The notes beneath the pieces were generated by a model. It searched no databases. It was not told where the DNA came from and saw only the letters and a program-made list of their open reading frames with translations. The position numbers were made by a program, and so were the translations under genes. This document shows positions 18,024 through 56,394 of a DNA stretch of 64,000 nucleotides, piece by piece. How positions within the stretch are numbered: position 1 is the first letter of the stretch; each line of letters starts with the position of its first letter. This stretch comes from Cenococcum geophilum 1.58 (taxonomy: Eukaryota > Ascomycota > Dothideomycetes > Gloniales > Gloniaceae), in the NCBI GenBank assembly GCA_001692895.1, contig KV748262.1, positions 372,550 to 436,549 of the forward strand. The letters run 5' to 3'.

Positions 18024-18028
18024 TAAGA

Positions 18029-18921: not shown

Positions 18922-19829
18922 GTTGTTGGGGAAGACGTAGCCGGATTTGGAGGTTCCTACCCCCCGTTTTAGGAGGCTGTTTCTCCTCGCTTAGACCTAT
19001 ATCTATCGCCGCTTTTGCAACATACTAAGCGTGCTAAGGGCGGCAGGGTCTCCCTTACCCACTAAACCTAGAAGCGCGCGTGCAGCCCTATAATACACCT
19101 CTCGAAGCTCCCCAAACGTCCCTTAATAGCTATTTAAGAAGCTATGGATGTCCGCCGCCTACCTGATCTGGTTTCTACCTTTGTCCTTATCCTCCGCTAA
19201 AAGCACTACCCTTACCCGACGAAACCTCTCTTCTATACTACGCTCCTTTAACCCTTTTCCCACAGTAGCTACGTATGTATTTTCCCCTACTATTATATTA
19301 TTTACTTCTAATACTTAATTTCTAGGTTTCTACTCACGGGGTTTTTTGGCCTTATCCCGCTCTTAAGAATACCTATCTCCCGTAAAGCCTTTTTTAGCAT
19401 TCCTATTAACAGCAGTTACTCTTAAGCTAGCTTCTGTATATAGGCAACTAGTAGCTACTAAAGCACTAAAACACCACGCGTTTAACCACTATGCTCTCTT
19501 AAAGTAAGAAATAGTAAAATATAGATTTAGCCTCTAGTTTAGACCTTAAACTAGGCAAGCCGTCTTATTCTAAGCCAGCTTTAGACTTAGATTTAAGCTC
19601 TAACTTTAAAGCTAGGGAAGATACCAAGTCTAAGGGGGAATATTTGCGGTAGAGGATTGCGTATTATAAGGGTTAAGGAAGAGCGAAGTTAAAACGGAAG
19701 CCCTAGTCTACTTCTCTTGTTAAGCATAAGTTTTAGAATTAAGAAAAGTTCGTTTATATTTAGACTAAGATTTACCTTATAATACTAATAATTTATATTT
19801 AGGTTCTGCCTAAAAGTTAAGTCTAACCT
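18922..19829 (+). other. 5' edge of the insertion, upstream of the captain
   Basis: GC-richer than its surroundings to about 19300 (for example GTAGCCGGATTTGGAGGTTC, CGTGCTAAGGGCGGCAGGG), then AT-rich. It shows no clear domain. A + frame from about 19580 (Lys/Arg-rich) may be a decayed first exon of the recombinase. The sharp change of composition at 18922 marks the left junction. Confidence 0.5.
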
Positions 19830-22080
19830 AACTAAGGCCCTTTATTAGTGCGCGGCCAATACGTTTAAAACATACCTTAAATAGCGCGTAAAGAATTCTC
19901 GAATTAAGAAGGAAAGCGCGATTAAGGCGTACTGGAGACGAATTCTGTGCAAATTTATAGATATGGTAGGCCATGGTATAAATAATGGCGCAGAACTTAA
20001 TATACAAAATATAGGGCGATCTTCGACCTTTAAAAAAAAAACTTAGCTAATTTATTATAGTGGATTCTAACCTACTTAACGCTAATATATAAGCTGGATA
20101 TGTTAGAGAAAGAAAAGCATATAATATATGTGTAAGACTTATATATAATTATTAATACCTATTAAATAATAGACGCGAAGTCTCGCTATAGTTGTTTTTA
20201 AGTGTAAATAGGAGCAATCCTCTTTCTCTCTAGTGCTATAGTAATAAGACCCTAAGCTCTTATTAAAAGTTTAAGCGTAAAAGGCTCTAATAAAGCGCTT
20301 TTATATAAATATATCATAATCCTAAAAATTCGCGATGCGAAAAACTTTAATTAAACCACAACTATTGCCCTCGTAAGTCTTATATATATTAAGAATTCTA
20401 AAGGTATAGGCAGATGGTATATAGCGACGCTAATTAAAGACGGCGTAAATGGCGCTAATAGACCTATAGTAAGAGGTTCATTTTCCATCTTAAAAGCATT
20501 CTAGCTTTTTATATTTTATCCTATATTATAAGCCTTGCCATTACAGATAATGTATTTTAACGCTATTATACTTTACTAGAAGAGATTTTTAAACTTAAAA
20601 TCCTAGCAAATAAAGAGAGTCTTAAAGTGAAGTTTAAGAAGCAGATAGAGGAACAACCCATCTTTTAAGATATTAAGATAATAGCTAGTTATAGGGGAGT
20701 GTTAGACACTAAAGTATTCCCTTACTAGAAATGCCGCGATTACTATATATAGTTAGGCCAAGTGGCCGGGTTTAAATAATTACTTAAACTTTACTAGCTA
20801 TAACAAGCGTCCAGAAGGAAATTAAATAGTAAGTATCTAATTTAATATAAGTATATCTATTAACTAAGCTTTCTAGCTACCCTTACTCTAAAAGAGCGAA
20901 ATTAGATAATAGGTTATTATAGTAATACCTACTAATAGTTTTATTTACCTAATTTAATTAAGCGCGATTTCCAGTTAATCTACTTCGGGACTCTATTATA
21001 GGACGACCTTATCTAATATGCCGCACGGATAGGGATTTTAAGGGATAAGCGGGCCCCTATAGGTCTAACTAACGAGTAAAAGCTTAAATTCTAGTTAGAA
21101 CTTAATTAACACCCTAATATTTTACAGCTTTATAAGAAATGAAAGCAATATAAGTAAAAGATCAGGAGCTAAGGATATTACCCTATTAACGCCGTAAAGG
21201 GAATGAAACTATACGACCGTTACAACAAAGCTAGACGTAAACTTTATAGTATTATAAACGTCCTACGTAAATAAAAAGAGGACTAGGTTATTCTTGATTT
21301 TTATAACACTATTAACAATTATAATATTAAAAGACAGCTTAGTAGTAGCGTTAGGACGGACATTCCCACCTATTTAGCTATATAGTATAAATTTTGTAAA
21401 CGTGCTACTATTGCTAAACTGCTGTCTTAGCCGCTAAATAAGCTTAAAGAAGGGCACGCTATAAAACTCTATATGAAGTTTATCCGTAATCTCGTTAAGT
21501 ATTATAATTAATAAGAGAGCCGGTAGAATGAGATCCCAAGTAAGGCTATTAGATTTTAACTTAGGTCTAAAGTAGACTAAAGTATAATAGGCGTAAAAAG
21601 AGGTATAAGTGATACCAATACTAGTACCTATTAATAGGCAAAGCGGCAGAAAGAATATATTAGCTTAGACTCGCCTTTCTAAGAAAACCTAGATAAGACG
21701 TAGAGCGCGGTCCCAATTAAGGAAGAGGGTATTAAGATAATATAGCTGCCGTATCCTATGACGTTTACTAATCTTATTTGCCTTATCTATATTAGTGATA
21801 ACTAACTCTTAACGCTAAGGCAGACCCGCCTATTTATAAAGAAGGATACACTATAGAAGTATCTTAATAATCACGTTATAGAAGGAGTGTTTAGGTAGAG
21901 GTTCCGCTATAAGCATCCTTATTGTTTAGAGTGGATTAAAGGACTTAAGCATTTTAAAAATCATGCAGCCCTTATGCATGGCGTATAGCATCTAATTAAG
22001 AGGCACCGCTAGGTAAGTCGCCTTGCTTATGCGAGAATCCTATACTAACCCTCTGGTACTAATAGAAAGGCATATAACTA
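19830..22080 (+). pseudogene. DUF3435/FluG-type tyrosine recombinase (Starship 'captain' class), broken
   Basis: A site-specific recombinase that would excise and insert its element. The + frame gives an N-terminal SAM-like segment (AANTFKTYLKQRVK, 19855-19896; IKAYWRRILCKFIDM, 19922-19966). The first catalytic Arg box follows (SSAIVIRPxALIKS, 20229-20270), then KALLYKYIIILKIRDAKN (20293-20346). The second box is LYQLQQASRRKLN (about 20795-20830; family RRASGRK). The GHRGDTY box has decayed to ITGYYSNTYQQFYLP (20906-20950), losing its His. The C-terminus has IKRQL...VRTDIPTYLAIQY, KAIRFQLRSKVDQS and a zinc-finger-like HPYCLEWI...HFKNHAALMHGV (about 21913-21990). Length (about 750 codons) is usual. 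Stops and the lost His show it is dead. Introns may account for frame changes near 20480-20640. Confidence 0.85.
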
Positions 22081-22439
22081 GTAAATTTAAAACTATATGT
22101 TCCTTATACATGGGACCTTTTCCTAGTTATTTCTTACTTATCTTATTATTCTTTACCACTTTTTATTTTATTTTAGTCTATTATTATCCAATCCTATTCT
22201 AGTATTTAGTAAAATAGATGCAATAACTAGGATTTTATAATTTATCTAGGGGGCAAGGGGTAATGGGTAAGGGTGAAGGTGAGGGTGAGGTAAAGGATGA
22301 GATAAAGGGTAGGGTAAGGGGTAAGGGGTAAGGGGTAAGGGGTAAGGGGTAAGGGGTAAGGTAAGGGGAGGCTGATGGGAGATGGATAATATAGTTGCTA
22401 TATAATATCTAATAGATCGACTATAGACGAGATATATAT
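22081..22439. other. Spacer after the captain, with G-rich tract
   Basis: AT-rich to 22245, then a purine-rich G/A tract from 22249 to about 22390 with little C. No gene seen. Confidence 0.6.
22312..22370 (+). repeat. (GGGGTAA)n tandem tract
   Basis: Seven near-perfect GGGGTAA units follow degenerate GGGTAA/GGGTGA units from 22258. The 7-mer resembles, but is not, the fungal telomere unit TTAGGG. It is one-stranded in purine bias and could form G-quadruplexes. Confidence 0.9.
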
Positions 22440-22469
22440 TTAAATTTCTTAGATTAACCTAAACAATAT

Positions 22470-23545
22470 AATAACTTTCTACCTAAGCCGATCTCCTAAG
22501 CTATATATCTTTACTTATATATAACGCTCGCACCTTTTACAACAAAGTATATAAGGGTAATTAGGGTCGGATAGATAACTACTATCCTTAATGTAATATA
22601 TAAACTCGGCTTTATAACTAATATTATAATAGGTTTTAGTCATGCAGAGGGTATCAAGACAGTTATTAATGTTTTTGCTTTTGCGCTTAGCCGCGATATA
22701 CCTTACCTTAGCGGATTAAAGTAGTAATTCTGTTTATTATAGCTAAGATTGGACAGCTTAAAGTTTTAGTATAAAATTTTCCTCTATGTCCTTAGATGCG
22801 GTAATCGCTGTCCGTATAATGCCGATGGCGAAATCGCTTATAATGTCTAGCTCTATAAAGTCCCTAAGTTTAATAAGCTCTTTAATATACTTAGCCGCTA
22901 TTAAGGTAATTATATTATATAATGCTAAGTCGCCTATTAGGCTAAAGACATCCTTAATAATATTAGGAAACCCGTCTACGGACCAGCTGGTTCCTAGAAT
23001 GTATTGGATTTTTATATTCGCAAGCTCTTTTAGCTATAGTATATTGTAGTAATCGGTAATTGCATTAATATAAACGTAATAAAGTGTAATATGGGCCGTC
23101 GTCGGCCGTATCGTTGTGTCTTTATTATCGCCACCGCTATTATCTAGTTTAGATGGCGATAAGGCATCGGCGTTGTTAATATTAGATCCTTGCTCCTCCT
23201 TGCCATTTTTATAATCCCTCTTATATATAAATTAGATTATCCTCTTAACAGTACCGGAATTAAACTCGTTAATATTTATAATATTAGTCACCGCCTCCTA
23301 CCCGTTAGTTAGTTAGTTAGGGTTAATTCTACTAGACATTTAGTTAGCTTTTACCTAAAAGCCTCTATTATAGGCAGCTGTAAGTATAGGAGATTAGGTG
23401 CATATAATCGCTTTATAGACTTTAAACTCTAGCCCCTGGCATATAAGTTTTAAGTTACTATATTTCTCGCTGTCTATAAGCTGCGCTAAGCTAAATAGAA
23501 CACTTTTAGATGGTATATTTCTCTAGTTTTAACTACATCTTAAGC
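22470..23545 (-). pseudogene. BTB/POZ domain protein, broken
   Basis: BTB proteins are dimerising adaptors, often for cullin-3 ligases. On minus the N-terminal half has the BTB order: LIDSEKYSNLKLICQGLEFK (23490-23430), VYKAIICT (decayed VHK..VC..S), AAYNRGF, then NEFNSGTVKRIIxFIYKRDY (23264-23205; family ..VERMLQYLYTGDY). A Ser/Asp/Gly linker with NSGGDNKDTT follows. The back half is helical: HITLYYVYINAITDYYNILQ then LKELANIKIQYIL (23085-22990), as in the long fungal BTB proteins. A decayed Cys-rich tail lies at 22660-22540 (CCKRC). RIP-type stops are few in the middle, so this is among the better-preserved cargo genes. The start near 23545 is approximate. Confidence 0.8.
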
Positions 23546-24289
23546 AATATTTAAGGGAGTAATTTAGTATTAAACAGGATGATTAAGAATAAGAACTCTG
23601 CTTTATTAAACATAGCTCTAGAGCCTCTATATATACATTAAGAAGTCGTTATTAGCTTCGTCTAATCTACGACGGATTTAGCTAGTTAGTTAGAGCTTTA
23701 AACGTCAGTTGCTTGATTAAGGACTAGTGTGACTTCTAAAGTTCTAGGAAGGGTAAGTGGCGGGGTATGCGGCGGCCGCAGCGCCTAGAAGCAGTTAGTG
23801 GTCATATAATAGAGGCTTAGTTAAAGGACGTATTCCCGTAGCTTAGGTTAAGGCTCTACACTCCTCCAAGCCATATTAAGTAAAGTTAAATAGTATTATA
23901 TTCCTGTGTACCGGCCCGCTAATTACACTATTCCACTTTTTTCTTAACTATGTACTAATACAACCCGCATAATTACTTAGCTCGTAAGATTAGCCATGCT
24001 TATATAGTTTACAAAAATTAAGCATTAGGTTTTAAAAGACCACTTCTATATAGCCTTTCTATCTTTGTTACAAAAGAAGTATATTTATACTAGGTATTTT
24101 AGCAAGGCCGGGAGAAGAGAGCGTAGAGAGGGGGTTTAATTTTAGTGGGGGTTGTAAGCATAGGCGAACGTGAAGGCATAAGGCGCGAAGGGCTTTAGGC
24201 TTAGTTATAGAATGATAGTAAATCGCTAGACCATTATATAAGCCGCACAAGATCTTGTATTCTTTAAACGAAATTAAGCAATTTAAGCA
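23546..24289. other. Intergenic, no recognisable gene
   Basis: Lies between two divergently or tandemly placed minus-strand genes and would include the BTB promoter. It holds a GC-rich patch (CGGGGTATGCGGCGGCCGCA, 23761-23780). A 60-codon minus open frame at 24068-24250 has no family features and low-complexity neighbours; I do not regard it as a gene. Confidence 0.5.
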
Positions 24290-24839
24290 ACGTAGTTCCT
24301 CTATATAAACTTAACTATTCCCTATACGGAAGTACCAAAGCTATCGTAAGTATTAGGGTAGTAAAGTACGCCAATCTAACTAAAAAGGGAGGCGTAGTAG
24401 CCTAGTTAGCATTATTAAGTTCCTTTACCTCTTTATCTAATTGTTCTAAAGCTTCCTTTCTACCTTTTATAAACTGTACATCGCTGGAAAAGCAATTAGA
24501 CCTCATTAATGTCCTATTATAATTAATTTCCGCTATAACTAATCTGCTACTACGGTAATGTGGCACGACTAAAGTTATTTAAATAATTATATTATATATC
24601 GGACCTATAGCCTAGTGAATATCGGGTTAAGTATACAGAATGCCGATAATCTTATAAATCTTTAAGATATTAGGGACCTGCTACTTATAATATAGGTAAT
24701 TACTTACTTTTGCTTTACGTAAATCGCCTTCTTCCTATCCTATAAAGGTAATATCTCGTTTTTTATCCTCCTTAGAAATCTCTTCTCCTAACTTTAGAAC
24801 CTAATAGGCTGACTTTTAGCTTCTATTAGACGTATCCAT
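24290..24839 (-). pseudogene. Unrecognised small protein, broken
   Basis: A minus frame opens with ATG at 24839 (MDTSNRS) and runs through few stops: LGEEISKEDKKRDITFIG (24800-24740), GDLRKAKVSNYLYYK, VVPHYRSSRLVIAEINYNR (about 24575-24510), VQFIKGRKEALEQLDKEVKE (24485-24420), then a hydrophobic end FLVRLAYFTTLILTIALVLP (24390-24325) that could be a single membrane segment. About 180 codons. I do not recognise the family. Two undetermined bases lie at 24840 and 24845. Confidence 0.4.
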
Positions 24840-24845
24840 NACGAN

Positions 24846-25400
24846 AATAGGTACCTAAGAGTAGCGATTAGATTACTAAAGATATAGAAGGGGTAGGTTA
24901 TATGCTGCTTGCCTTAGTAGGTAAGTTATTGCCGGTCTTTAGAGGTTGTTAAAGGCCTTTAGAGGTCTATGGAGGTCTTAAAGGCCTATTTATATATTAA
25001 TTAGTAAAACCCTAGCAGAGGCAGTATATACGTATTAGCAAGGTTAAATTGCGTGGCAGTTCTTACTAGAGCAACAAGGAAGTGCGTAGATTTAAGTTAG
25101 GCTATCTACGGCATAGAATGTATAAAGGCAGGCCTAAATACGACTTACTAGACGGTATAAATATAAGAAGACGCCTGTTCTAGCCTTGCTATAAGTAGTA
25201 AAAGATTAGTAAAGGGTAAGATTAAGTGTGCTTGTAGAATATAGGAGGCTAACCTATTATAAGTAGAGAAGCCTGGCTCGGCCGGCTATAAGTATAATTA
25301 CGTAGCATAGGGGGAGGTGTAAATTAGTACGCTATAATTATATATAGAAATGCGAACACGTTATATAATAGCCTTCGCTATACTATTTATGGAAGGAATA
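24846..25400. other. Intergenic, no recognisable gene
   Basis: Moderately AT-rich. A short degenerate repeat AGAGGT(C/T)TATGGAGGTCTTAAAGG lies at about 24938-24990. No coding signal in any frame. Confidence 0.5.
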
Positions 25401-26324
25401 GTTGCTAGCGGAGAGATATATTCTTCTTTAAATTAATCCCTAAAGCCTTAATCCCGGCGACTATGTCCTCCCTATATACGTCCTTATACGCATCCCCATC
25501 TTTATCTTAGTCCTCTTCTATACTATACCTTATATTGCGATTTCTATCATCCTATATCTTACGCTCTATCTATTATAGGATTTCTTTTCCACTATTTATC
25601 TTCTTAACTACACCTAAAAATATAAGAACTTTGTAATAATTCCCTTAGTAAATAAATTCCCTAAAAAAGGTTTTCTAACCGTAGTATTAGTAACGGGCTA
25701 AAGTATAGCAGATAGCTAGTAGCACTAATAAGGCGGGGGTATAGTAGACTTTAATTCTAAAAATATAGGGAGTAAGAAGAAAGTAAAATAGGGGAAATTA
25801 ATGCTATTTAAAACGAGAATTAATAATCTAGTAGCTAAATAGCAGGTTTTCCCAGACATGTAATATACACTACAGATATTCTATACGGTTAAACTATATC
25901 TTAAAGCCTAGAGTATATAAACCCTCCTCTACATTGCTCTTTTCTAAGTCGCTAGAAGACCCCTCTAGCAACTTTAACTATTTAACCTTTAATTTTACCG
26001 CGTTTATATCTTCCATAATTTGCTCCCCGCCTTATATTAGCCCTACTACTTCTAACAGAGCATATAACTACTTTTTAATCCTACTAATACAAAAATGTAT
26101 TAGGACTTAAGCGTACTTAAGTTTAGTAGGTAGATTATAGCGGAAACTAATCCATTTTAAAACCTATAAAGCTTAAGATTTATTAAAAATTACCTAGATT
26201 TATAACCTATTTTAATAAATTTAAACTGTTCTTTTCCCTAAGCGTTAGGAAAGACTCTAGCTATTTTATTATAGCTAGTTTCGGACGTTTTAAAGAGCAT
26301 ATAATACTCTTTTATTCTAGGCAT
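25400..26324 (-). pseudogene. Unrecognised protein with coiled-coil-like middle, broken
   Basis: Minus ATG at 26324 starts MPRIKEYYMLFKTSETSYN. After a frame change (intron or indel) the middle reads VKLKVKxLKLLEGSSSDLEK (about 26010-25945), and the C-terminus reads DDRNRNIRYSIEED then DGDAYKDVYREDIVAGIKAL (about 25560-25450), ending KKNISP. The heptad-like leucines and charged C-terminus suggest a structural or nuclear protein, but no family is recognisable. Confidence 0.4.
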
Positions 26325-26985
26325 ATTTAATAAAGATAGGTATTTTCTCGGTGGCAGTGTGATATAAGAGGTCTAGGTTAGTTAGTGAACGTTTTAGTAG
26401 GTAGTAGATTAAGGTACACTTTATCCTTGCTTTTAAGGGCTTAAACAATCTAACTTAAAAAGAAAAAAGCGTTAAATATGGTACTTATTAGTTCTAAAAG
26501 TATAGCTATATAATTGTAGATAGGAGTAGGGGCAGCGATTAATAAAGATCGTTAAGAGGTTATAGTGCGTGCCGTGTGCTATTTATAGGCCTTATTACAG
26601 CTAGGTAAGAAGTCTAGGCCGCTAGATATATTAAAGGGCAGAAAGGGCACTATAAATGCATCTACGTAGGATAAGATGCTGAGTGTTTAATGTATATAGC
26701 GGCCCGCACAGCGGCCATTATGCATATTAATCTTATTTTAGCGGTGTGTTTAAGGTATTAAAAACATTACTATTAAATCCTCGCCAATAAAAATGGTAAA
26801 GCCTAAGCGTTACTAGTGACGCTTATTTAAGCATTAGGGTGTTAAATATTTGAGGCTTATTTAAAATGCTAAGCATTTTAATATCCGTGCGCGTTGGCGA
26901 ATTAGTATACCTAGCGCGCGAAATATAAATAGGCCGATAAGCCTACCCCTCTAAACTGCCCCACCACTTAAATAATTTTACTTGC
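26325..26985. promoter_or_regulatory. Divergent intergenic region with palindromes
   Basis: Separates a minus gene (ending its start at 26324) from a plus gene (from about 26990), so it would hold both promoters. It carries an inverted repeat TAAGCGT-N8-ACGCTTA (26804-26825) and a perfect palindrome TAAAATGCT-A-AGCATTTTA (26862-26880). It also has the GC-rich repeat GCGGCCCGCACAGCGGCC (26700-26717). These could be factor-binding sites; this is inference only. Confidence 0.4.
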
Positions 26986-26989
26986 AGCG

Positions 26990-27750
26990 AGCTTATAAAA
27001 TTGGATATAGTAACGCAAAAAATAAGTAAGCATAAAACTCTAATAAAGGATTACCGGAATAGGATATATATAGTATCCGTAATTAACAAGTCGCACGTAG
27101 ACCTTATATAATCTAGCCTAGAGGAGACGATATAAAAGATCTAGAAGACTACGCCAACTAAAACTGTACCTACTATTGCCTTAACGGACATTACGGAAAG
27201 TAATAAAGCGTATAAGCTTGCAAAAATAGTATATTTAACATAGTTTACTTTAATATAGTAACTCTAACGGCTAATGCAAATAAGGAATTTAAGTTAAAGA
27301 TACTAGAAATACTACTAAAGTTAGGAGTTGGAGTAGTTAATATAAACTCTTTATATATGGGCCCAACAGTCTATTTTATAGGACGACGTATTTTAATGCA
27401 ATATCTAAACAATTTAGTAGTGTATATATTAGCTTTTAGCCCTTATTAGGACTCCTAGGTCCCGCTTAGTTATATTATCCCGTATTTAGAGAGCGGGTGG
27501 GGCTGTTACTAGGCTAGTTTATAATGGGTAGAATGGAACGGGAGTAAAGGTGGCATTAGTATAATAATTACGGTGCCGATTATTAGCTAAGCCTAAACTA
27601 CTGGTTCTACTTAATAAGGGATATTATTAAACCATTATTATACTACGTTAAAAACCTAAAACTGGGGTGTATAACAATATAAGAGTTTTAGAAGAAATTT
27701 ACTAACATTTATAAGTAGAACTTATAGCAACCGCACTATTAAGGGACTTA
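26990..27750 (+). pseudogene. Unrecognised protein with conserved aromatic block, broken
   Basis: The + frame starts ISKHKTLIKDYRNRIYIVS (about 27020-27080) and continues through TVPTIALTDITESNKAYKLA. After a frame change it reads ANANKEFKLKILEILLKLGV (27270-27330), NINSLYMGPTVYFIGRR (27340-27390), VYILAFSPYxDSQVPLSYI (27421-27480) and YLESGWGCYxASLxWVEWNG (about 27484-27545). The long, nearly stop-free run 27260-27560 with Trp and Gly spacing shows a real folded protein. I cannot name the family. Confidence 0.45.
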
Positions 27751-27751
27751 T

Positions 27752-28070
27752 TGTATACCTATTACGCGGAGCCATAGCTTATCTGTTTGCTGTCGCTAAT
27801 CGCCAGTAGCGTATTACTACCGATTTGGTCTCTATATACCTATTACGCCTCATTATAGCCTATTTATTCGCTGTTACTAATTCCTAGTAGCGTATTACCG
27901 TCGATTTAGTCTCTGTATATCCATTGCGCCTTATTATAGCTTATCTGTTCGCTGTTTCTAATTGCTAGTGGCGTATTACCGTCGATTTGGTCTCCGTATA
28001 CCCATTACGCCTTATTATAGCTTATCTGTTCGCTGTTACTACTAACGTCTATAGAACTAGAGCCGCTAGG
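27752..28070 (-). repeat. 81-bp in-frame tandem repeat, nearly four units
   Basis: Units start at about 27758, 27839, 27920 and 28001, an exact 81-bp period. On minus each encodes 27 residues of the form QWVYGDQIDGNTPLAI plus SNSEQISYNKA. The reading frame is kept across units, so the array is the C-terminal repeat domain of the adjacent minus-strand gene. Confidence 0.9.
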
Positions 28071-29109
28071 GTTTCCATTTAAACACGCTATGCTATTTAT
28101 ATTTAGGTATCTTTACGCAAGATTGCCGCGGGTATTAAAAGGGGTGGGGAAATCTTGTAATAAGCGTTCTTGACTAAGGCGTAGTGTAAGGGATTCGCCC
28201 GCCGGCTTAGAGGCTTAAGGATATTGCTTAATAAATTATAGAGAAGATATTCTATGGCCTGTAATAAATTAAAGATACTACTATTTAGAAGCATAACTAC
28301 TCTTATATATCTGCATACTATTTATTAAGGCCATTATTAGTAGCTAAGGAGGGTGCAATATTATTAGATTTGCGTGTTAGTGATTATACGCTAATATAGG
28401 ATCCCTAGGTTTAGCAACTTCTATATAGGGGCGTTTATAAGGGGAAGAAATTCGCTTTTTTGGGCTTAGCTAGGGCGGGTTAGTGGTGCTAAAATATATT
28501 GGTTTAAGAGAAAGCATCTAACTAGAATAAAGCTCTTGACACTATCCCATCCAAACTAAACATTTTTGCGCAATTTTAAATATTATAAAATAAGACCGGT
28601 GCCGTAAAGCTATAAGAAAATCGTCAATATTAGGTAAATTTAATCTCTGGCAGGCGTTATAGGTAAAGGCTAAGAGAACTAATAGCCCTGCCCCTTTAAG
28701 CCTTTATATAATATAAAGCTTAATTCTATATCCAATAGCTAAAGCCGCTTTAGTGACGTCGTGACATCCTATACTTCTTATAAATAATATAATATAGCTA
28801 ACTCCCTTTACAGAAGCGGCTTAACTTTTAACTAAACTTTTAATCCTTAACGCACTTATAGACTTTAATTGCCATTTCTTAAAAGAATCCATAAGCGTCC
28901 ATTGGCTAAGAAGTTTTTAAAAAATAGCGTTATTTAATAAATTACTATTAGTAGTAATAAGATCCTTAACAAGGGGATATTCGTTTAACCACTTTGGTTT
29001 ACTAACAATAGCCTTTAGATTTTCCCCTACAGATATATTAACAAATGTCTTAATCTTAGAGAGGTTTGCCAATAATGCGTTAAGTAGGTTCGCATATCTA
29101 GGTAAAAGG

Positions 29110-29400
29110 GGAGGTAGAGAAGCAACCTTATTCCCTAAAGAAGGCTAGACACTCCCTAGAGAAGGCTAAATAACATTATCCTTATTTCCTAGAAAAGGCT
29201 AGACATCCTTACTCTCTAAAGAAGGCTTAATAATATCCTTATTCCCTAGAGAAGGCTAGATACTCCCTAGAGAAGACTAGACAGCATTATCCTTATTCCC
29301 TAAAAAAGGCTAGACATTCTTACTTCTTAGAGAAGGCTAGACAATATCCTAATTCCCTAGAGAAGGCTAAATATCCTTACTCCCTAAAGGAGCGTGGAGC
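29110..29400 (-). repeat. CCCTAGAGAAGGCTA tandem repeats, coding for QPSLGNKD units
   Basis: About twelve units of CCCTAGAGAAGGCTAGA(C) alternate with a longer form containing TTATCCTTATT. On minus they give (Q)PSLGNKD(N/I)(V) in one frame, continuous with the sequences on both sides. Confidence 0.88.
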
Positions 29401-29520
29401 GAATTATAGTAGCCGCGTTTATTCTCTAAAAGAGGCGGTAAATATTAAAAGGTGTTAATAGGAAGCTTCTAGAGCCTTTAAATAGTATATATAATATTAG
29501 GGAGATAAGGTTAAAGCTGC

Positions 29521-30140
29521 TTATTAGAAGCATTATAGATAAGATTTAGGGCTACTATAATGCTAAAGTCTATAATAGTGGGTTATAAGTTATATAATTT
29601 ATATTAAGATAAAAGAGTAGTTAAGTGCAGTTCCCCTCCGCTCTTAATTCCCTAGTAGGTCGCTAGCGCCCCTAAAACTTAGAAGAGCCTTACGCTAATT
29701 ATATCGCTTTAATTAAGTATCGCGCACTTAATTAAAGCGATATAATTGGCGTAAGGCCCTTATTGGAGCTGCGCTAATATAGTAGCAATTATTAACCTTA
29801 CTTTTACTTATAATGCGTAGTTAAAAATTAGACCTCTTTTTTAGCTAAGATAAGAGGCGATATAAGTCGCAAACTTAATTAGGCGTATAATGTGAAATAT
29901 TTAGTAATACAGCTCGTTCTATTATAGAAGGCCGTAAGCCTTAATACTATTAGAGGATTCCTTTTTCAACTAACACGTAGAATGCATAATTTGTAATAAT
30001 TTCTTCCTTAAAAAGCCAAAGAGTAAGACGCCTTAATAGATCTAAGGATACTATCTAAAGGAAAGGATATAGAAATACCTAATATATAGAGCTAATTTCC
30101 GCCCTATTACACTAGGGATATATAATTACCTTTATTGCCC
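29521..30140. other. Intergenic with a long hairpin
   Basis: Upstream of the minus repeat gene. It contains the 31-bp-arm inverted repeat at 29688-29756 and otherwise AT-rich sequence without coding signal. Confidence 0.5.
29688..29756. repeat. Foldback: 31-bp inverted repeat with 7-bp loop
   Basis: The left arm (29688-29718) begins CCTTACGCTAATTATATCGC. The right arm (29726-29756) is its reverse complement with a single C/T difference, around the loop ATCGCGC. The RIP-type mismatch suggests the arms were once perfect. It could be a miniature foldback element or a cruciform. Confidence 0.9.
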
Positions 30141-32640: not shown

Positions 32641-33000
32641 AGGTAATTGTGTAAGTAGAGTAGTCTAACCTAGCGCCCTCTAATTAATGCCTAGCGTATA
32701 AATAGGGTATTAATGGGTTTAATAACTTCGCGGCTTTAATCGTGCGAGCTAGGTGATTATGCGAGCTAAGTAATTATACAAGCTAGGTAATTGTACCAGC
32801 TAGGTAATCCTGCGAGCTAGATACTCGTAGGAGCTAGGCGATCCTACGAGCTGGGTAATCGTGCGAGCTAGGTAATTGTGCGAGTATAGTACTCCTACGA
32901 GCTAGGCAATCGTGCGAGCTAGGCGATTGTGCAAACTAGGTAATTATGCGAGTAGGGATCTAACCTAGCGCCCTCTATTAACGCCTAGTATATAAATAGG
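32570..33000 (+). repeat. 17-bp minisatellite GAGCTAGGTAATCGTGC, with flanking 43-bp direct repeats
   Basis: About twelve head-to-tail 17-bp units run from 32744 to 32952, with looser units from 32575. The array lies between two copies of TCTAACCTAGCGCCCTCTA... (32664-32706 and 32959-33000), each ending TATAAATAGG. The unit length is not a multiple of three, so it is non-coding. Confidence 0.9.
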
Positions 33001-33480
33001 AAGTAAATATTAGGAAAATACCAGAACTATAAAAAAAGAAATATATAAGCCCTAGATCTAGAAATATTAAAGAAGTTCCTATATAAAGACCCCTTATATA
33101 TACTTAGAGAAGTTCCTATATAAACAGCCCTATAAGCGTAGCTATAAGTCTAAGCCCTTTCGCGTAACCTAACTACCCTTCCCTACTACACCGGAATAGA
33201 TAAATAACCGCTATATACTATAAGTAGAGAAATAATTTAAACAAAAAGAAAACATTATAAAAAAATATATTTATATCCTTAAGATATAAATCTATAAGTA
33301 CTATAGTCTTAAATACAACTAATAGTTGCTAAGGTGGTATACGTCCTAGGTCTATAAGAAATTTAAAAAATCCTAGGTCGTTAGCATAGATTTACCTTTT
33401 ATTATCGCTTTTAAGGTAGTAAATAAATTTATCTAAGTGAAAGCATAGATTATCGCAAATGCTTTATAGCTCGCTATAAG
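33001..33480. other. AT-rich spacer
   Basis: Holds a short direct repeat GAAGTTCCTATATAAA (33073 and 33111) and poly-A/T. No coding signal. Confidence 0.5.
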
Positions 33481-34590: not shown

Positions 34591-34599
34591 ATAAACGTC

Positions 34600-44700: not shown

Positions 44701-44709
44701 TTTACTCTT

Positions 44710-45350: not shown

Positions 45351-45499
45351 TATAAGGTGGTAACATAAACAGGTTAGACGGCCCCCCCTACTAGTATAGT
45401 AATAAAATAACCTGGTCCCGCTATGTCACTTTAGACTCGCTTATTTTATTATTATACTAGTAGGGGGGCTATCTAAGCCGTTTATGTTACCCCCTTATA
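45351..45499. repeat. Foldback/MITE-like element, 60-bp inverted repeats
   Basis: The left arm (45351-45410, TATAAGGTGGTAACATAAAC...) and right arm (45441-45499) are reverse complements except for about five mismatches and one C in a C7/C6 run. The loop is 30 bp. Both ends are TATAAGG-like, so a TATA-containing target duplication may be part of the arms. There is no coding capacity. It lies just after a plus gene end. Confidence 0.9.
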
Positions 45500-47803: not shown

Positions 47804-47814
47804 AAGGGCACTAT

Positions 47815-49560
47815 TATTATTGCTATCTCTTCCGCCTAGTAAGCCGGCCCCTTTTCTTCTACATAACAGGCCGGGCCTTTAATTTTAAATAATAATGCGC
47901 CTATAGTGATCTGAGGCTTCTCTTTAGAAAGCTATCTTTAATCTATTCCCATAAAAGATTATATCCCTCCTTTAATTTAATAAGTAGCGCGTCTTCCTCT
48001 TTAGTGAATATTATTCTAGACTTTAGCTCTTAGGGCTTTAGCTCCTAAGGCTACTTAACTAGGTTAAAAGGTAAAGTAAGTCGTTAAGGAAGGATATCTA
48101 GTATATATAACCCGTCTTTCTAGCGCCTAAAAGCTACTTAGATTAAAATTTCTTCTAAATTAGCATTTAAGGCAGCTCTTAATATTACTTTATTAGAGTT
48201 AGAACTAGAGGCGGGGCTTAGCAGCGGTTTTTAGGTACGGAGGCGATTATATATAGGGGATGCAACCCGCTTATAATAATTGCTAGTAAGTGTAGTACTT
48301 TAGTCGGACGCATATATAGATAAAATTAAAGAGGAATAGTGAGACCGCTGGAGATAATGCTTCGCAGCACGCTTTATCTTTAATTAACTAGTAATAGGGG
48401 TTAGTAATCCTTATCACCCTACACACCCGCGGGCCTTATTACCCTTATTACTATTGCTGCTATCACCGTCCCCAAAGTCATTATTATCCGTATCGTCACT
48501 ATTATTACTTCCGTCGCTATAGTTCTCGGCCTTGCCTTTATCTATAACGTTCTCACCGTCTTTATTATTGCTTTCTTTAGCTAAGCCATTAATAAGATCG
48601 TCCGGAATATAATTACGACTATTATTAGCCCTATTTTTTAGTGGTTTAGTATCACGAGGAGATATATAGTGCTAGGGGGAGGAGCTAGTGGGCCGCGCAG
48701 CAGAGACCGCTTACTCCTTAATACCGTTACCGTTATTAAGGCCAAGGGTAGGAGAGCTAAAAGGCGTGGTCCTTTAGGAAGTAGGTAACCTTTATTACTT
48801 CTTAGGTTATACGCTCTTACCGCTCTTACTAACAGAAGTATTAGAGATATAATTAATGCTATTTAGTTAATTAAGCTAATCAGACCTCTACTTTTTTAAC
48901 TTCTTAGCTTTTAAAGACTCTTAACTAGCAGCTATTAATATCCTAAGCTTCTACCTAAACTACAGAGCAGTTCCAATCTAACGCCCCTTAGCTAAATTAT
49001 CCGTTTAATTGCCGTCTAGCGTTAAGGGTGTGGTATAATTATATATAGATACGCGTACCTCCTCTTCTAGCGCTTCTAATAAAGGCAGCTCCTTATTATC
49101 TTCATTATCTTTATCACTACCGTTATTTCCGTTATCTACTAATTGTTAAATAAGGCCATTATAAATTAAAAGGGAAAGCGCATACCTAATCCATAAGGTG
49201 TTAGTTAATTATCGGCTTCGTCAGCTTCATTATTAGCGTTACTAGCTTTATTACCCTTAGCTTCCAAGTCCAGATCGGCTATATTATCTTTAATAACTAT
49301 TAGATTTTCTGCTAGTTATTAGGCGTATATATTCACAACTACTAGGGGAATAGGAAAAGCGTGGTAGGGTAATTATAGGGGATAATTACCTTAACTACTT
49401 CCTCTAGAGACTTAACTGTTATTTCTATCCCTATAGAAATCTTCCTTATTATTCTTATAATACTTATTATAAGCTTTCTTATAATTATATATAGGGTTTA
49501 TAAGCGCTTTATTAGACGGAATCTCTAAACTAAAGCCCTAGGTAAAATAATATGCTATTA
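47815..49560 (-). pseudogene. Myb/SANT-like domain protein, broken
   Basis: A probable DNA-binding protein. On minus, the N-terminus reads IPSNKALINPIYNYKKAYNK (about 49525-49466), followed by an Asn/Ser/Glu-rich linker (KGNKASNANNEADEADN, 49260-49205). A long acidic Ser/Asp/Asn region has NYSDGSNNSDDTDNNDFGDG (48530-48470) and SNSNKGNKARGC. The C-terminal Myb/SANT-like module is IIFTKEEDALLIKLKEGYNL (48015-47957) then LWExIKDSFLKRSLRSL, ending HYYLKLKARP (about 47885). This is the 'W/F-T-x-E-E-D-x-L-L ... F-x-x-R-S' spacing of fungal SANT proteins, with Trp and His/Arg positions decayed. Stops are of RIP type. The start is approximate. Confidence 0.75.
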
Positions 49561-50710: not shown

Positions 50711-52200
50711 ATATATGGCCACCCTCTACGTAGCCGAAATAAGTGTCGGTTTGGGGCACGTGCGCACCCACCAAAATCATAGTTCACGATCACAATACCA
50801 TAATACAGCCAAATCAATTCAATATCGAGTCATCTGCCCGTCAGCCCTAATGCACTCATGTAGGCGCTTCGTGTACCAGCTGTACATCTCTGCAATCTTC
50901 TCCTGATCTACTTGGTTCTCCTAAACATCTATAAAACGCTCTAATGCTGTGTCCTCTTCNACGCGCTTTGAATGGAATTTCTTCTTAATAGGATGGGCTA
51001 AGGACTCTATAATTAATAGATCTAGTAATAGACCAGGCAATGTTAGAAGCTTTAAGTCCCATTCCTTTACCCAGGCTAAAGACTCCCTTNATTTATGCGC
51101 TNAATCTNNATCCTNGCATAAAGTAATTCCCTTAATATTAAACTTTAAAAGAAGCTATGGTAACACCTGCTTGGTATAGGCTTTTAAATTTATCTTACCT
51201 ACCTAGTTATCCACCTTATATAAGAANAACTTTTTTTAGGTCCTNCTAATAACAATAAAGANATTAAACAGTTTAAGATGCTTCTTCTCTTAGGCCTTCT
51301 CCTTTTNATCCTTTTTAGTAACCCCCTTCTTNCTATAAATATTCTGTGGTAAATAGCGGTAAAGATTACTACTTCTTCTCTTAATTCTATGGGTTTCTTC
51401 TATACCTAAACTAAAGTGATATTTATTATAAAAAGCAATATTATTCTAGTCTTTGGGATAGGGTCTTTTTTCTAGCTATAAATAGTACCAATTCTTTCTT
51501 CTATCTGCCTGCTCCTAGTTAAGCCACTTCTCTTCTTCTATCTTTACATTAATATACCCTTTATCCTTTTTTATGGCTCTTTAAATTAGCTTATTTCCAA
51601 GAGGTTAGTAACCTGTTCTTTAAGTTAGAACCATTAGAAGATCTTTATAATTTAGGGCCTTTTAAATAATAGTCTACTATAGGGCTGATTTTAAGTCTTA
51701 ATTAAGATTGGGGTCGTCTAAATACACGGCAATAGCGTAGGTATCTTCCTTTGTAAGAGCTCGATTTCTTCCTCTTATTTCTAGCCTAAAATTATATATA
51801 GTTCTGCATTGCTTTAAGGCCACAATACGTTGCTAAGAGTGCTCTATAATTCTAGTAGCCTGCTATATAATAGCCGGAGGAATGGCCTTGCCTAGTAATT
51901 GGCCAAAGATTTTGGCGTAGAGAACTCCTATACGTAAAGGAGTCTTTAGATGCTTATTTTCCCTAGCATTATAGTATAATTCTGGGGGTGGGGTAAAGTG
52001 TTTTGCCCGTATTTTTTAGGATGCAGGCTCCTTGGTAACTTGGGTTATAATTAGTAATTGCAGCGAACGAATTTGGGTGCGAAATGGTGGTGTTGTAAGG
52101 TTTGTTATGATTGTGAGGCATGCTCAGGGGGCTTTGTTTGGGTGGGGCGCGCACGTGCCCCAAACCGACACTTATTTCGGCTACGTAGAGCCACCTAGGC
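50711..52200 (-). mobile_element. Tc1/mariner-type DNA transposon, about 1.5 kb
   Basis: Terminal inverted repeats of about 50 bp share CTCTACGTAGCCGAAATAAG and GTGTCGGTTTGGGGCACGTG at 50725-50766 and, inverted, at about 52148-52190. Outside the shared core the ends have diverged, so the exact tips and TA target site are uncertain. The interior encodes a DDE transposase on minus. The inverted repeats create mirror-image open frames at both ends (LYVAEISVGLGHVR) that are not proteins. Several N positions lie in the interior. Confidence 0.88.
50720..51960 (-). pseudogene. Tc1/mariner transposase, broken
   Basis: Cut-and-paste transposase. On minus: a helical N-terminal region (51900-51560), then KRPYPKDxNNIAFYNKYHFS (about 51466-51410; the first catalytic Asp region 'DE/FH' decayed). 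LPQNIYRKKGVTKKD and EKKHLKLFN follow. Then come ITLCxDxDSAHK (about 51135-51090, second Asp), WDLKLLTLPGLLLDLLIIES (51070-51010; the family has PDLS/N-IE, Glu kept) and YSWYTKRLHECIRADGQMTR (50886-50827). Stops and undetermined bases make it inactive. The DDD/E spacing and closing GQMTR place it with the fungal mariner elements. Confidence 0.85.
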
Positions 52201-52639: not shown

Positions 52640-52647
52640 GGTATATT

Positions 52648-52800
52648 CAGTGTGGCCAACAGTCAGCGTCCAGCGAGCTTCGCTGACTGACTGTACTAAT
52701 TGAATCGCTCGCTGTCCGCTCGCTGGGTATATGTATACGCTGACTGCACCGCTATTAGCGCGCTTATCTAAATCGGGTAATTTGTATAGATCTAATAGAG
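52648..52800. repeat. hAT left terminal and subterminal repeats
   Basis: TIR followed by CAGCGAGCTTCGCTGACTG, GACTGTACTAATT, CGCTCGCTGTCCGCTCGCTG and GTATACGCTGACTGCACCG. The same words recur in inverted order near the right end (55755-55887). Confidence 0.85.
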
Positions 52801-53109
52801 TCATAGAGCTAAAGTTTAGATTTTTGACAGCACTTCTGTATGTACAAATATTAACGTTGCCCGATCTCAAATCTACCCCAATTAACCTTATATAGTATTT
52901 GGACATCGTTAGATTTAGTTGCCGCGCCGCGTAGAAGTTAGTAATGACGTTAGTAGTAGGGATTTGGGTTAGGTGGTTAAGTAGGCTCTATAAGCTCTAT
53001 TTTTAAGTCAGATTCTATTAGGTAGAGAGCTCTAGTAAACATACCTCTCTAATTTAGTGTTTCTACCACTATATCTGGCCTATAGCCAGTAAGATTGGTA
53101 TTTAAATTC

Positions 53110-55560
53110 GTTAACTAGGGTGTAGTTAAGGCTCCATTAAAAAGTTAACACAGTTAATTAAGCTGCTTGGCAGAAGGCCTTTAAGTAGCCACTATTTCTG
53201 ACACTAGTCTGCTTTAACTATATCGGCTAAGAGCCTATTATACTTATTGGTAACAATCTTCTTAGCTTAACTAAAAGCTCGCTTATATATAGAGCTTATT
53301 ACTAGTATAGAGAATAGATTTAAAGCGATCTTGGTAAGAGTTGGATAAAGGATTTAACTAGTAGTAAGCCACTAGTTAAGAGGATCTAGAATAACGTCGC
53401 TTACCTTACTACCGTTTTTATTACGGATCTTAATTAGCTTAAGGCCTGCCTCGTAGTAGCGATTAAGTTTAGTAGTAAGCTTAATTCGCTTTTATAAGCG
53501 TAAGGAAGTAAGCGTCTTGTTAACTAGTAGAGATTATAAATATTTATTGCCCGAATTGTTACTAGATAAAGGAACCTTCCTACGTTATAATTTAACCACC
53601 TTATCTTTCTTACCTACTTGCTTATTAATATAGTTATTAAATACTGTTTCCATGTATCTCTCGGCGTACTTCTACTACTGTGGCTACCGTTTCCACTTAT
53701 CGCGAAAGTAGGCGCGTTTAAGAGAGGGATAGAGGATAACCGCGATAAAGTAGTACGGGCTCTTAGCTTTTATTTTATTAAAATACTTATTAAGCTTCTA
53801 TAGAGCCATATTAACGCTAGATTTAAGGAGGGAGTTGTTTATATTCTTAAGATTTTACTAAGTTTATATAAGGATCTGGCGAAGAAGCTCCATATTTATA
53901 ATTAACTCCTATAAAGCTCTATATAAGCCTTTAACGCCATAGCTATTAGTGTCGCCTTTTATACGTTTAGTGGCTAATATAAAAGGCTTTAGGATTCTAA
54001 TAAGCTGCTTAACTTCCGCCCAATCTTCTTTAGTAAGAAAGTCCTGCGTAAGGTCGTAGCTATTATTAGTAGGCTTCCTCTAAGCCAGCAGATATTTATT
54101 AATCCCCTTCTTAAGAAGTAGCGCCCGCCGAAGTATAAAGTAGGTAGAATTCTACTAAACGCCTCCGTCCTTAATAAGTATAAGTTTAGCTTAATTAAAG
54201 AGCTCATCCTTTATATAGGCCTTAGCTTAATTCTTAGTGAAGTCCTAGCGGTAAGCTATAGATCGTATAATATATTTAATAATATTATAGACCTTTCCGA
54301 CAACACCTTTCTGCCGTATAAGGTTAAATTTAGCTTAATTGCTTGTACTAATTAGTAAGCGTTTAAGCTTGCTAATACCTTTACTATACAGTAAGGCCTT
54401 AACGACGAGGTTTATAATATGGCCAATATACCAGAGTCGTTCCCTTTTTGCCACTAAGAGACTTTGTGAGAGGTATTTATAGAGCTCGTTATTATTAGTG
54501 GCATTATTAGCCATTAAGCAGCCAAGCTTATATTCGAATTAATACTTCTAAATAACCGTTACTAAACCTATTGCCACGTTCTTAGCCGTATGCGATCCTT
54601 ATATGCGTGGAAGTCCTATAAGGATTAATTATAGCTTGCTACCTTTATTAACTAAGTAGGCTACTACACTAAGTAGTGCCATTCTATTTATAGACGTCCA
54701 GATATTACAGCTAAGGTAGATTTTACTTTATAAGGTAAGGAGGAGGTCTTTAATATTAAGGCGTCGGCGCTTAAAGGCAGATTTTATCTAGTCGCTTAGT
54801 AATATATGCGAACTTATAAGACACTCCTATATCTAAGGACGGTTAAATATAAGTAATGCGCGGGTATAAGTACTTATAGCTTGTCGAAATGTAATATCCT
54901 ATAGAATCGTCCAATTAACATAGGTTTGTATATAGCTAGCTACCCAGAACGGCTGGCGTTCGCTACCGCTGGGTATAGGAGAGACTTAAGCGTTTGGTTC
55001 GGACGAGCCTTATAAAGTACTACTATAGCTATTATAATTAAGAATAAGACTATATTTTAATTTTAAATAGCCAACAATGTAATCTGTGCCGTTAATTATA
55101 AGTAACGCAGCTGGTCTTTAAGCTAGATGGCAGATTTTATATAGCTAGAGTCTCTTTCTGCCCTCTAGCCTATCCCAGAACATATCTACTCTATACTTCT
55201 ATATAGTTAATATAGAGGAGTTCTTTAAAAGGGACCGCTTATTAATAATTCGGTATCCGTATTTACTAGTAAGCTTACCGTGCTTACCTAGGTAAAGGTT
55301 GTCCTAGTTAATAGGAAAGATATAGCCATAGTTCTGGCTAATTGGTAAAGGCTCTCGCGATATAGAGTTATTCTGCTTATTTAATTCAGGCGTGTCTTTA
55401 ATTGTAAGGGGGGTAGAAGTAGTAGATCCGCAACGCCTATGGGATATTAAAGAGCTTAATTAACGCGTAGATTATAAACTTAATAAGGAAGAAGCAGAGG
55501 AAGAAGCAGAGGAAGAAGCTCTACTAGTTGGCTGGCGGGTAAAATATAAGGTGCGTTGTA
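53110..55560 (-). pseudogene. hAT transposase with C-terminal dimerisation domain, broken
   Basis: Minus strand. N-terminal Ser/Arg-rich part with TSRASSSASSSASSLLSL (about 55525-55470), then YLGKHGKLTSKYGYRI (55300-55250, BED-finger-like region decayed). The middle has INGTDYIVGYLKLKYS, ANNATNNNELYKYLSQSLLA (about 54510-54450, the D-N-A-x-N-N motif) and RERLWYIGHIINLVVKALLY (54448-54389, R/CxxHxxN motif). The C-terminal hAT dimerisation block reads ILYPTLTKIALNLFSILVIS (53352-53293), SSIYKxAFSxAKKIVTNKYN (family S-E-R-x-FS, 53292-53233) and RLLADIVKADxCQKxWLLKG. About 800 codons, normal length. RIP-type stops. Confidence 0.88.
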
Positions 55561-55754
55561 TTTTCCGTGGCAATAAAAAGGTTAATATTGGTAGGTAAAC
55601 GCGTTTAGAGACGCGATGGGGAATTTAGAGAAAACCATACTATTTTATATGAATATCCCAGGGGTTTCCCGCCCGGATTTTAGCCGAAGATCTTAGATTC
55701 TTAATCTCTACTAAAAGCTTCAAAAACACCACCAAATTGACCTTTCTTACCACC

Positions 55755-55887
55755 TATGCAGCGAGCTGTCAGCTCGCTGCAGTCTTACCGCTGACTGACT
55801 GTTACAACTATCTACGCTGACTGACTGCTTACATAAGCAGCTAGCTGCCAGCGACGCTGCCAGCGACGCTGCCTGTTGGCCACACTG
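55755..55887. repeat. hAT right terminal and subterminal repeats
   Basis: Contains GCAGCGAGCTGTCAGCTCGC (palindromic), three CGCTGACTGACTG(C/T)(A/T) words and GCCAGCGACGCT twice in tandem, then the TIR. It is RIP-poor. Confidence 0.88.
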
Positions 55888-55895
55888 GGTATATT

Positions 55896-56394
55896 CGCGC
55901 TTAGCGGACAGAGGCAGCGCTGAGAGATCTTAATAATAATTAAAGTCACTGGCACCAGAGGCGGTGATTGGGAAAGGAGGCTATAACCATCTATACATCG
56001 CCGTAGAAGAGAGTCGCCCATTGGAAAGGCCGCAATTAACTGCATTAATTATTAGTCTAAGACACGGGTAAATAAAGGAATGAGCGGGCTGGACTTACAT
56101 ACGCATAAGCGCTAAGGGGCGGCAGATATGCCTTAATACGACCGTGCCAGGGACTAGCAGCAAGAAGAGGAGAAGGCGCAGTATTAAGAGAAAGGAAAGA
56201 TAGAGGATAAGAGGAAAAGCGGCAAGAGAAATGGCCTTTTATGGTTAAGGTTAAGAGGCAGTCTTGGCTTGGCCGGGGTTAATAAGCGAGGGCGCCTTGC
56301 CCGTAAAGGAAGCCTCCATTTCCTAATGCAGTTTCCCACATAATAAAATAACTTAAAATACCACTTGCCCTATAAACATGCATACAATTATTTA
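55896..56394. other. Right edge of the 37.5-kb insertion, RIP-poor then AT-rich
   Basis: GC-rich, purine-biased stretch (56140-56230) followed by GCCGGGGTTAATAAGCGAGG, then AT-rich from 56335 up to the return of gypsy A sequence at about 56395. No gene recognised. Confidence 0.5.

Follow-up and report, generated by a model that had tools for sequence, protein, structure and literature searches.

In Cenococcum geophilum 1.58, a tree-root fungus, the reading of a gypsy retrotransposon breaks off and is resumed beyond about 37.5 kb of other DNA. What is this intervening segment, and how did it come to lie there? We analysed the surrounding stretch of 64,000 nucleotides, which is called the window in the following. 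A sequence-only reading had proposed an extinct Starship-like giant element, carried inside the gypsy, led by a captain recombinase and inactivated by RIP.

Boundaries, captain and contents of the element

The host of the segment, gypsy A, lies on the forward strand. Its 5' LTR, which was assigned from a direct repeat, and the following sequence occupy 6439-7526; after the nested gypsy B (7530-18025, +), gypsy A goes on from 18029 to 18910, with a RIPed zinc knuckle recognised by eye near 18270-18320 and with the putative protease of the sequence-only reading. Beyond the segment it continues towards the reverse transcriptase (56354-56932), where it is cut by a LINE at 56932. Gypsy-only copies align with the left query up to 18910 and with the right query from 56348, and three uninterrupted copies (L029, L031, L037) are unbroken over the equivalents of window 6.6-7.5 kb, 18029-18910 and 56348-56932. 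The two window flanks, when joined, match gypsy DNA at 37 other loci, which represent 36 places as two of them coincide; most of these matches extend over 144 bases without a gap. These empty sites, which are repeats within the same genome, confirm that one gypsy has been interrupted. The element spans 18911-56353 (+; 37,443 bp, including one direct-repeat copy), as determined from both junctions and from ends that recur elsewhere; the edges first assigned, 18922 and 56394, were off by 11 and 41 bp. Without three nested inserts, its length is about 31.6 kb.

The direct repeat around the element has 6 bp and one mismatch. Its left copy, ATTACT (18905-18910, +), stems from the gypsy target, the target consensus being TATWACT in 40 aligned left junctions; the right copy, ATAACT (56348-56353, +), is identical in 38 of the 38 right junctions read and is for this reason probably the element's own core. 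The left terminus (18911-18951, +) consists of two variable bases followed by TAGAATCTTGTTGTTGGGGAAGACG..., and the right terminus (56297-56353, +) closes with YAGTTTYYYNNNNAAYAAAATAACT. A terminal inverted repeat, plausible by eye, was rejected: none was found above chance, the alignment of the consensus termini being equalled by 513 of 2000 shuffles. Such repeats are not strictly defining for Starships, being present in 18 of 20 elements according to PMC12153272.

The first recognisable gene is the captain, a DUF3435 tyrosine recombinase gene with introns (19491-22012, +). Its start codon, placed via the starts of the un-RIPed relative C33 (see below) and of Zopfia, lies 580 bp inside the left edge. 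A Pfam search of 18901-57001 in six frames, with stops read as X, gave a DUF3435 (PF11917) match at 20501-21349 (+, E 3.7e-23) and no other match at E<=1 before the captain, in agreement with the DUF3435/FluG-type recombinase which had been placed at the left, facing the cargo. Its relatives include a 783-aa DUF3435 protein of Zopfia rhizophila and a C. geophilum protein; all relatives listed carry PF11917 (4/4 in one search, 50/50 in another). The window captain contains 38 stops across residues 293-782 of the Zopfia relative.

By structure, the element is a Starship. A DUF3435 captain comes first and points inward, the size exceeds about 15 kb with cargo, the boundaries are precise and flanked by a direct repeat, an empty site exists, and the same element occurs at at least two sites. 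These properties uphold the proposal of a Starship-type giant element which was inserted into an old gypsy and then RIPed. Crypton DNA transposons are also mobilised by a tyrosine recombinase, but are small and without such cargo; a Crypton identity was rejected on account of the 37 kb, the cargo and the DUF3435 domain, as opposed to a small cargo-free element with a Crypton-type recombinase. The latter is only very distantly related to the Starship captain, according to PMC12134995.

Among the cargo genes proposed earlier, the FunK1-type fungal kinase is best supported: a pseudogene at 39024-40237 (+) matches FunK1/Pkinase_fungal (PF17667) in two frames with E 2.1e-38 and 5e-28. For the supposed AAA+/DUF7025 gene (42100-43130, -), the DUF7025 domain was found (42846-43130, E 7.4e-13), followed on the same strand by an AAA match which is weak and under the Pfam cut-off (42100-42180, E 0.02). 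The BTB and Myb/SANT genes are represented solely by weak matches on the reverse strand below the cut-off, namely BTB at 23193-23483 (E 0.0059), within the first cargo segment shared with a second family described below, and Myb-like at 47874-48008 (E 0.0016). An ankyrin-like gene found no counterpart at E<=0.1 in the six frames of 18901-57001.

The three later inserts within the element include a hAT transposon. The first (37039-38200, 1.16 kb) has a 13-bp direct repeat, CGCGATTTATTTA, and is missing from the second-family copy C2. An element with terminal inverted repeats (50724-52190, 1,467 bp), whose inverted ends are identical over the 40 bases compared, is flanked by the 5-bp repeat CCACC; neither it nor the hAT (52648-55887, -), with its 8-bp target duplication GGTATATT, occurs in the right ends of the four sister copies that were read. 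The hAT domain had not been mentioned in the sequence-only reading. Owing to its own ends (52648/55887), its own duplication and its absence from the four sisters, the hAT was rejected as mobiliser of the whole element.

Copies of the element and their decay

Genome-wide, the right-end pattern was matched 50 times, exactly in 45 cases and with one mismatch in five; a reversed control gave no match. All 40 left ends read begin at one and the same position of the element, and their flanks form 34 clusters, i.e. 34 contexts; the clustering score was reached by 0 of 2000 shuffled pairs. Note that the DNA searches scored the best 40 candidates only, that the left-end motif set comprises 40 of 42 listed ends (C3:863377 and C13:1630487, with approximate coordinates, were left out), and that 38 of 41 listed right junctions were read (without C26, C52 and C21). 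A right end was paired with 32 of 43 left ends at spans of 27-111 kb; these 32 copies total 1.52 Mb, nested inserts included, and the pairs furthest apart may have other elements between them. For ten of the 50 right ends, neither a captain nor a left end is listed in the 130 kb upstream. The 49 captain loci listed exclude further-exon rows and weaker rows from other lineages (34-46% identity: C92, C3:493756, C21, C9). For 39 of the 49 a left end is listed at most 12 kb upstream, in 32 of these 39 cases at 1,518-1,561 bp from the captain match. Except for C33, the captain loci (48/49) are full of stops. The window element, which had been regarded as the rare record of a single inactivated element, is thus one of about 50 copies.

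Flanks were joined for 28 of 29 pairs (without C26). The outcome was a full match in eight cases and a partial one in four (C7:1996487, C38:662741, C38:1380830, C111); two joints, C3:863377 and C13:1630487, were misplaced, and 14 pairs had no empty-site match among the few sequences compared, so that a single insertion is not proven for every pair. In addition to the window, seven pairs matched a contiguous empty site, in each case over 138 or more of the 144 bases; for C5 and C13, e.g., this is 16135-16278, which makes this part of the window's gypsy B pol an empty site for the Starship family. Since copies occupy several positions in two gypsy families as well as unrecognised flanks, the gypsy did not carry the element, contrary to the initial proposal. 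With respect to the target motif TATWACT, only 16 of the 40 left ends have TTAC, the canonical core, and fit TTAC(N7)A, as described for the Hephaestus family, 21 have TAAC, and three have neither; the hexamer ATAACT, present in 21 of the 40, is that of all 38 right ends read. One 7-kb gypsy B contains 31 TATWACT-type sites, counted on both strands.

The element is RIPed throughout. In 64 1-kb bins covering the window, TpA/ApT is 1.40-2.08 and (CpA+TpG)/(ApC+GpT) is 0.16-0.86. Relative to un-RIPed C33, C>T and G>A changes account for 423 of the 694 differences; they affect 64% of CpA, 65% of TpG and about 50% of CpG sites, compared with 11-20% of CpT, CpC, ApG and GpG. Both the indices and this excess substantiate the RIP inferred from the window alone. 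C33 is an element of 76.8 kb; RIP is absent from its ends and its captain stretch, and its joined flanks correspond to gypsy B. The RIP-free captain stretch extends over about 4 kb, with an apparent frame change near L152:2960; inward from about 5 kb the sequence is RIPed and further on is gypsy B (C33 was read over its first 16 kb and at its right junction). We do not claim that C33 is fully intact. Its captain is 78-83% identical to Zopfia, and the next Zopfia relative reaches 58% in a search which omits shorter proteins, including P0001 and P0003, by a length rule; horizontal transfer involving Zopfia is not claimed.

These data bear on two other origins of the segment. It could be chromosomal background or a segmental duplication with independently inserted gypsy pieces, and five copies (window, C26, C13:1630k, C101, C17) do occupy one and the same gypsy site, as read on one or both edges, and C97 and C41 have both flanks in common. 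However, gypsy copies without the element run on across 18910/56348 without a gap, the ends recur at one base in the 34 left-flank contexts, and several copies lie in two gypsy families at different positions and in both orientations, each of these with a corresponding empty site. This origin is therefore extremely improbable for the segment, and for the family as a whole independent gypsy pieces in a chromosomal background are refuted by the contiguous empty sites and recurrent ends; neither of the two contrary outcomes named with the sequence-only reading turned up in these same-genome comparisons. It is also very unlikely that a giant element of non-Starship type was moved by another mobiliser and merely had the DUF3435 captain as a passenger. 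An origin of this kind would be compatible with the lack of a significant terminal inverted repeat and with a hAT near the right end, but not with the similar spacing of captain and left end at 32 of 39 loci, nor with a hAT that has its own duplication and is missing from the four sister copies read; moreover, short direct repeats that derive from a specific core, such as those at the ends here, are expected of a tyrosine recombinase.

We are thus highly confident that the window element is a copy of a high-copy C. geophilum Starship family, presumably inserted by its captain and killed by RIP. From the observed anatomy, ends, empty sites, copy number and RIP, we infer a model of strand exchange, with the captain as agent and with RIP, rather than age, as the end of the family. 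The captain would excise the element at its ends, and the element would be joined to a TATWACT target by strand exchange within the ACT core; the repeat on the left would then be that of the target (either ATTACT or ATAACT), and the ATAACT on the right would come from the element itself. The graveyard of RIPed retrotransposons would act as landing ground, because it holds many TATWACT-type sites. Once the copies had risen past the RIP threshold, those sufficiently similar would have been mutated, leaving dead captains.

A second captain family with shared cargo

A second family differs in its captain, which is very divergent, and in its left end, which holds TTACT in 19 of 19 cases, but has part of its cargo in common with the window; its right end was looked for and not found. 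Similarity to the window starts at 22073-22105, 60-90 bp past the captain stop, in all six second-family copies read, and similarity of the window to C33 stops with the captain just before this point, at 22023. By sequence comparison, the first cargo segment in common is 22086-23746. The main block shared with C2 is 32582-41235, with 82-88% identity over long pieces, the nested insert 37039-38200 excepted. Between them, 24314-25161 is reordered in C2, with an identity of only 71%, and the rest of 23746-32582 is missing from this copy.

As judged from these comparisons, the common cargo is most likely due to an exchange of captain modules. Alternatively, though rather doubtfully, the two families may have captured the same repeated segment separately, without any such exchange. 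The reordered and missing parts of 23746-32582 would agree with separate capture, as the cargo order is not wholly kept, and so would 13 of 40 FunK1 matches without an assigned captain, a number which is partly due to the list of family-1 captains, in which the best 40 of 117 candidates are covered. Separate capture does not readily account for two collinear blocks, for a start of similarity at the same place in 6/6 copies, or for FunK1 lying at a regular spacing from the captain in both families (second-type captains were taken by profile range, 59 matches; the chance control used two approximate contig sizes). Captain-module exchange may be part of a more general principle, to which we assign an even chance: Starships would be built of exchangeable parts, and a module of left end and captain would swap as a unit onto an established cargo chassis, with the joint just past the captain stop. 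Two deeply divergent modules would have driven a shared C. geophilum chassis to dozens of copies each, before RIP killed nearly all of them, and the RIPed graveyard would have supplied TWACT landing sites.

Significance and comparison with known Starships

In most descriptions, Starships carry cargo at low copy number; a family of about 50 copies shows that they can proliferate like ordinary transposons, and that almost an entire lineage of them can be killed by RIP. The C. geophilum genome has 177 Mb, a size attributed to retrotransposons; as the 32 paired copies span 1.52 Mb, Starships are a measurable part of it. According to PMC12153272, current tools predict captain genes and require a well-resolved empty site. 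RIP-killed multicopy Starships are probably missed by them, because their captains are full of stops and their empty sites lie inside repeats. Two captain types with common cargo and a constant joint make captain swapping testable in one genome with replicate copies. A literature search found nothing on FunK1 with multiple copies and nothing joining captain, swap and multiple copies; for Cenococcum and tyrosine recombinase, the sole match appears to concern Copia elements.

As in the Starships covered by PMC12134995 and PMC12153272, an inward first captain, direct repeats of a few bases, cargo, insertion into an AT-rich transposon and a size within 15-700 kb are found. In contrast to A. fumigatus, whose Starships are, according to PMC12153272, single-copy with few exceptions, although some other species accumulate copies, one Cenococcum genome contains about 50. 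The core is TWACT and not TTAC alone, Hephaestus having the target TTAC(N7)A; unlike usual Starships, it has no inverted repeat above chance, and nearly all listed copies have been killed by RIP. RIP-degraded Starships resembling it are the Gaeumannomyces GtA elements, Frontier, and Limos in Fusarium (PMC12134995 and PMC12257634). Those are single or few elements, whereas here dozens of copies within one family are dead and a single relative is un-RIPed. In Aspergillus, too, Starships with divergent captains have cargo in common, and captain swapping was posed there as an open question. The boundaries of those elements were uncertain; in both Cenococcum families, by comparison, the left end is precise in many copies, and the switch is found at a single place, 60-90 bp past the captain stop.

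Edges of the element within gypsy A

The window retrotransposon gypsy A is interrupted three times: by another gypsy, gypsy B (7530-18025), by a 37.4-kb Starship-like element (18911-56353), and by a LINE, which cuts it again from 56933 (about 56933-62000; endonuclease match 58814-59173, reverse transcriptase match 60008-60313). The sequence-only reading had proposed a giant segment splitting gypsy A between 18922 and 56394; the interruption holds, while gypsy-only copies place the real edges at 18911 and 56353. For the left-edge query (best 40 of 453 candidates), gypsy-only copies stop matching after 18910, and most element-only copies start at 18903; for the right-edge query (best 40 of 575 candidates), gypsy-only copies mostly start at 56348. 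The empty site in the gypsy reads GTTATTACTTAAAATACC; the left edge in the window is GTTATTACT followed by ACTAGAATC, the right edge AAAATAACT followed by TAAAATACC. When the window flanks are joined, they align with unbroken gypsy copies at 36 further places (37 loci, two of which are one place); one example is the stretch L046, with 134 of 144 bases matching gap-free. Within the 5' LTR of gypsy B lies a 2.7-kb element (7716-10391) with 257-bp direct repeats and a repeat-rich interior.

A family with precise ends and empty sites

The searched genome of Cenococcum geophilum 1.58, an ectomycorrhizal dothideomycete, comprises 177,193,698 bases in 162 contigs, the window being C87:372550-436549; a published account puts the genome at 178 Mb, 81% of it repeats (PMC5023957). 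Queries made of element sequence alone recovered 40 left ends (best 40 of 54 candidates) and as many right ends (best 40 of 147) of the window element's family (family 1), and 40 left and 38 right junctions were read. The start base was identical in all 40 left ends, and the seven preceding bases follow TATWACT, with A -6, T -5, C -2, and T -1 invariant in 40/40. The left hexamer is ATAACT in 21, ATTACT in 16, and another in 3 of the 40, and ATAACT occurs in 38/38 right ends. The first two bases past the ACT core, 18911-18912, vary (AC in 22/40, eight other pairs), and the following bases are nearly invariant. We infer a strand-exchange mechanism, and these variable bases may be coupling bases left by earlier sites.

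The 40 left flanks fall into 34 clusters, at a clustering score that none of 2000 shuffled pairs attained. Searching the genome with a right-end pattern that tolerates RIP gave 50 hits, of which 45 are exact and 5 carry one mismatch; the reversed pattern used as control gave none. By order and orientation, 43 left ends yielded 32 left-right pairs of 27.1-111 kb (median 42.9 kb), which sum to 1.52 Mb including later inserts. The joined flanks of 28 pairs were compared with a small sequence set: a contiguous empty site matching over at least 138/144 bases was found for eight (window, C1, C3:747242, C5, C12, C13:1351377, C33:81543, and C94, named by contig), a partial match for 4, and none for 14, while for 2 the comparison itself was misplaced. 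The copies at C5, C13, and C33:1227566 have their empty site in the window's gypsy B.

Captain decay and interior of the element

RIP-like dinucleotide indices in all 64 kilobase bins of the window, together with a RIP signature on both strands of the window captain (the element's DUF3435 recombinase gene) relative to its C33 counterpart, bear out the proposal that the element was RIPed. No open frame of 150 residues exists across the window. With stops read as X, Pfam clearly matched DUF3435, FunK1, and DUF7025, weakly BTB, AAA, and Myb, and also a hAT dimerisation domain; the six frames over window 23.7-38.1 kb gave no match at E<=0.1.

A census with the 783-residue Zopfia rhizophila relative (best 57 of 311 candidates scored) lists at least 49 family-1 captain loci, 48 of the 49 with many stops; the C. 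geophilum 1.58 protein K441DRAFT_188551 is among the matches to the captain search. The exception, C33:1228226-1230760, has 370 stop-free C-terminal residues, 78% identical to Zopfia. Its element (C33:1227566-1304378; L152, L153, L154) begins in gypsy B, ends 76.8 kb further on, and is followed by gypsy B sequence; its joined flanks match the window's gypsy B in 134/157 aligned columns. RIP is absent from both of its ends and from the captain stretch, which shows an apparent frame change, and RIPed sequence lies further inside. This is likely the youngest family-1 copy. The Zopfia captain (P0002), from another dothideomycete family, is 78-83% identical to that of C33, the next relative of like length 58%; horizontal transfer is a possible source of this similarity. 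The genome's best DUF3435 match, C49:752543-753905 (L001, L005), is almost stop-free and of a lineage differing from the window captain (25% to the nearest protein compared).

Three inserts are nested in the window element: 50724-52190, whose inverted ends are identical over 40 bases, a hAT at 52648-55887 with the duplication GGTATATT, both missing from all four sister right ends read (L040-L043), and a 1.16-kb insert at 37039-38200 with a 13-base direct repeat, absent from the C2 element. Without them, the element measures 31.6 kb at a GC of 0.356 and is less RIP-like than gypsy A (0.256) and gypsy B (0.264). This milder composition would fit an element that came in once RIP had already mutated the gypsies; a different starting composition could likewise produce it. 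Inverted self-matches occur at 45351-45499 and 29683-29761 (about 150 bp at 78%, 80 bp at 90%).

Shared cargo and comparison with known Starships

Among 40 FunK1 DNA matches (best 40 of 175 candidates scored), 17 lie downstream of a listed family-1 captain, 10 downstream of another DUF3435 type, and 13 have no assigned captain. Seven of these 10 sit 10.3 or 16.0-16.5 kb from the captain; a second-type captain within 60 kb upstream is expected by chance at 2.6% per random site. This second family is exemplified by C2, where the 30 kb read resemble neither the left end nor the captain of the window element, match 22086-23746 at 84-85% and 32582-41235 at 82-88% over most of its length, and miss most of 23746-32582. 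Its captain region gave no match to the Zopfia relative and is 23-34% identical to a few other relatives. In five further copies the similarity switches at the same place (22073-22105), and the family's left end is precise: 19/19 junctions read begin alike, with a TTACT core and 17 flank clusters. These data suggest an exchange of the captain module. Near this joint, close behind the captain stop, lies a GGGTAAG tandem array (22312-22361). A third DUF3435 type, likewise RIPed (L006, L007), shares about 67% DNA identity with the second family in the pieces that can be aligned; 12 further loci cover the same profile range and are candidate members of this type.

By the structural features tested, inverted repeats excepted, the window element is a Starship, as the sequence-only reading had supposed of a giant element in a gypsy. 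In the excerpts covered, Starship and Cenococcum are mentioned only separately, and a search for DUF3435 with Cenococcum had no match; surveys or supplementary files may list this genome's elements. The question of captain swaps is posed in PMC12134995 (section 9) from Aspergillus elements with uncertain boundaries. According to PMC12153272, Starships of A. fumigatus are single-copy with few exceptions, multiple copies accumulate in some other species, and multi-copy Starships can be degraded by RIP. The window element is a new member, high in copy number and killed by RIP.
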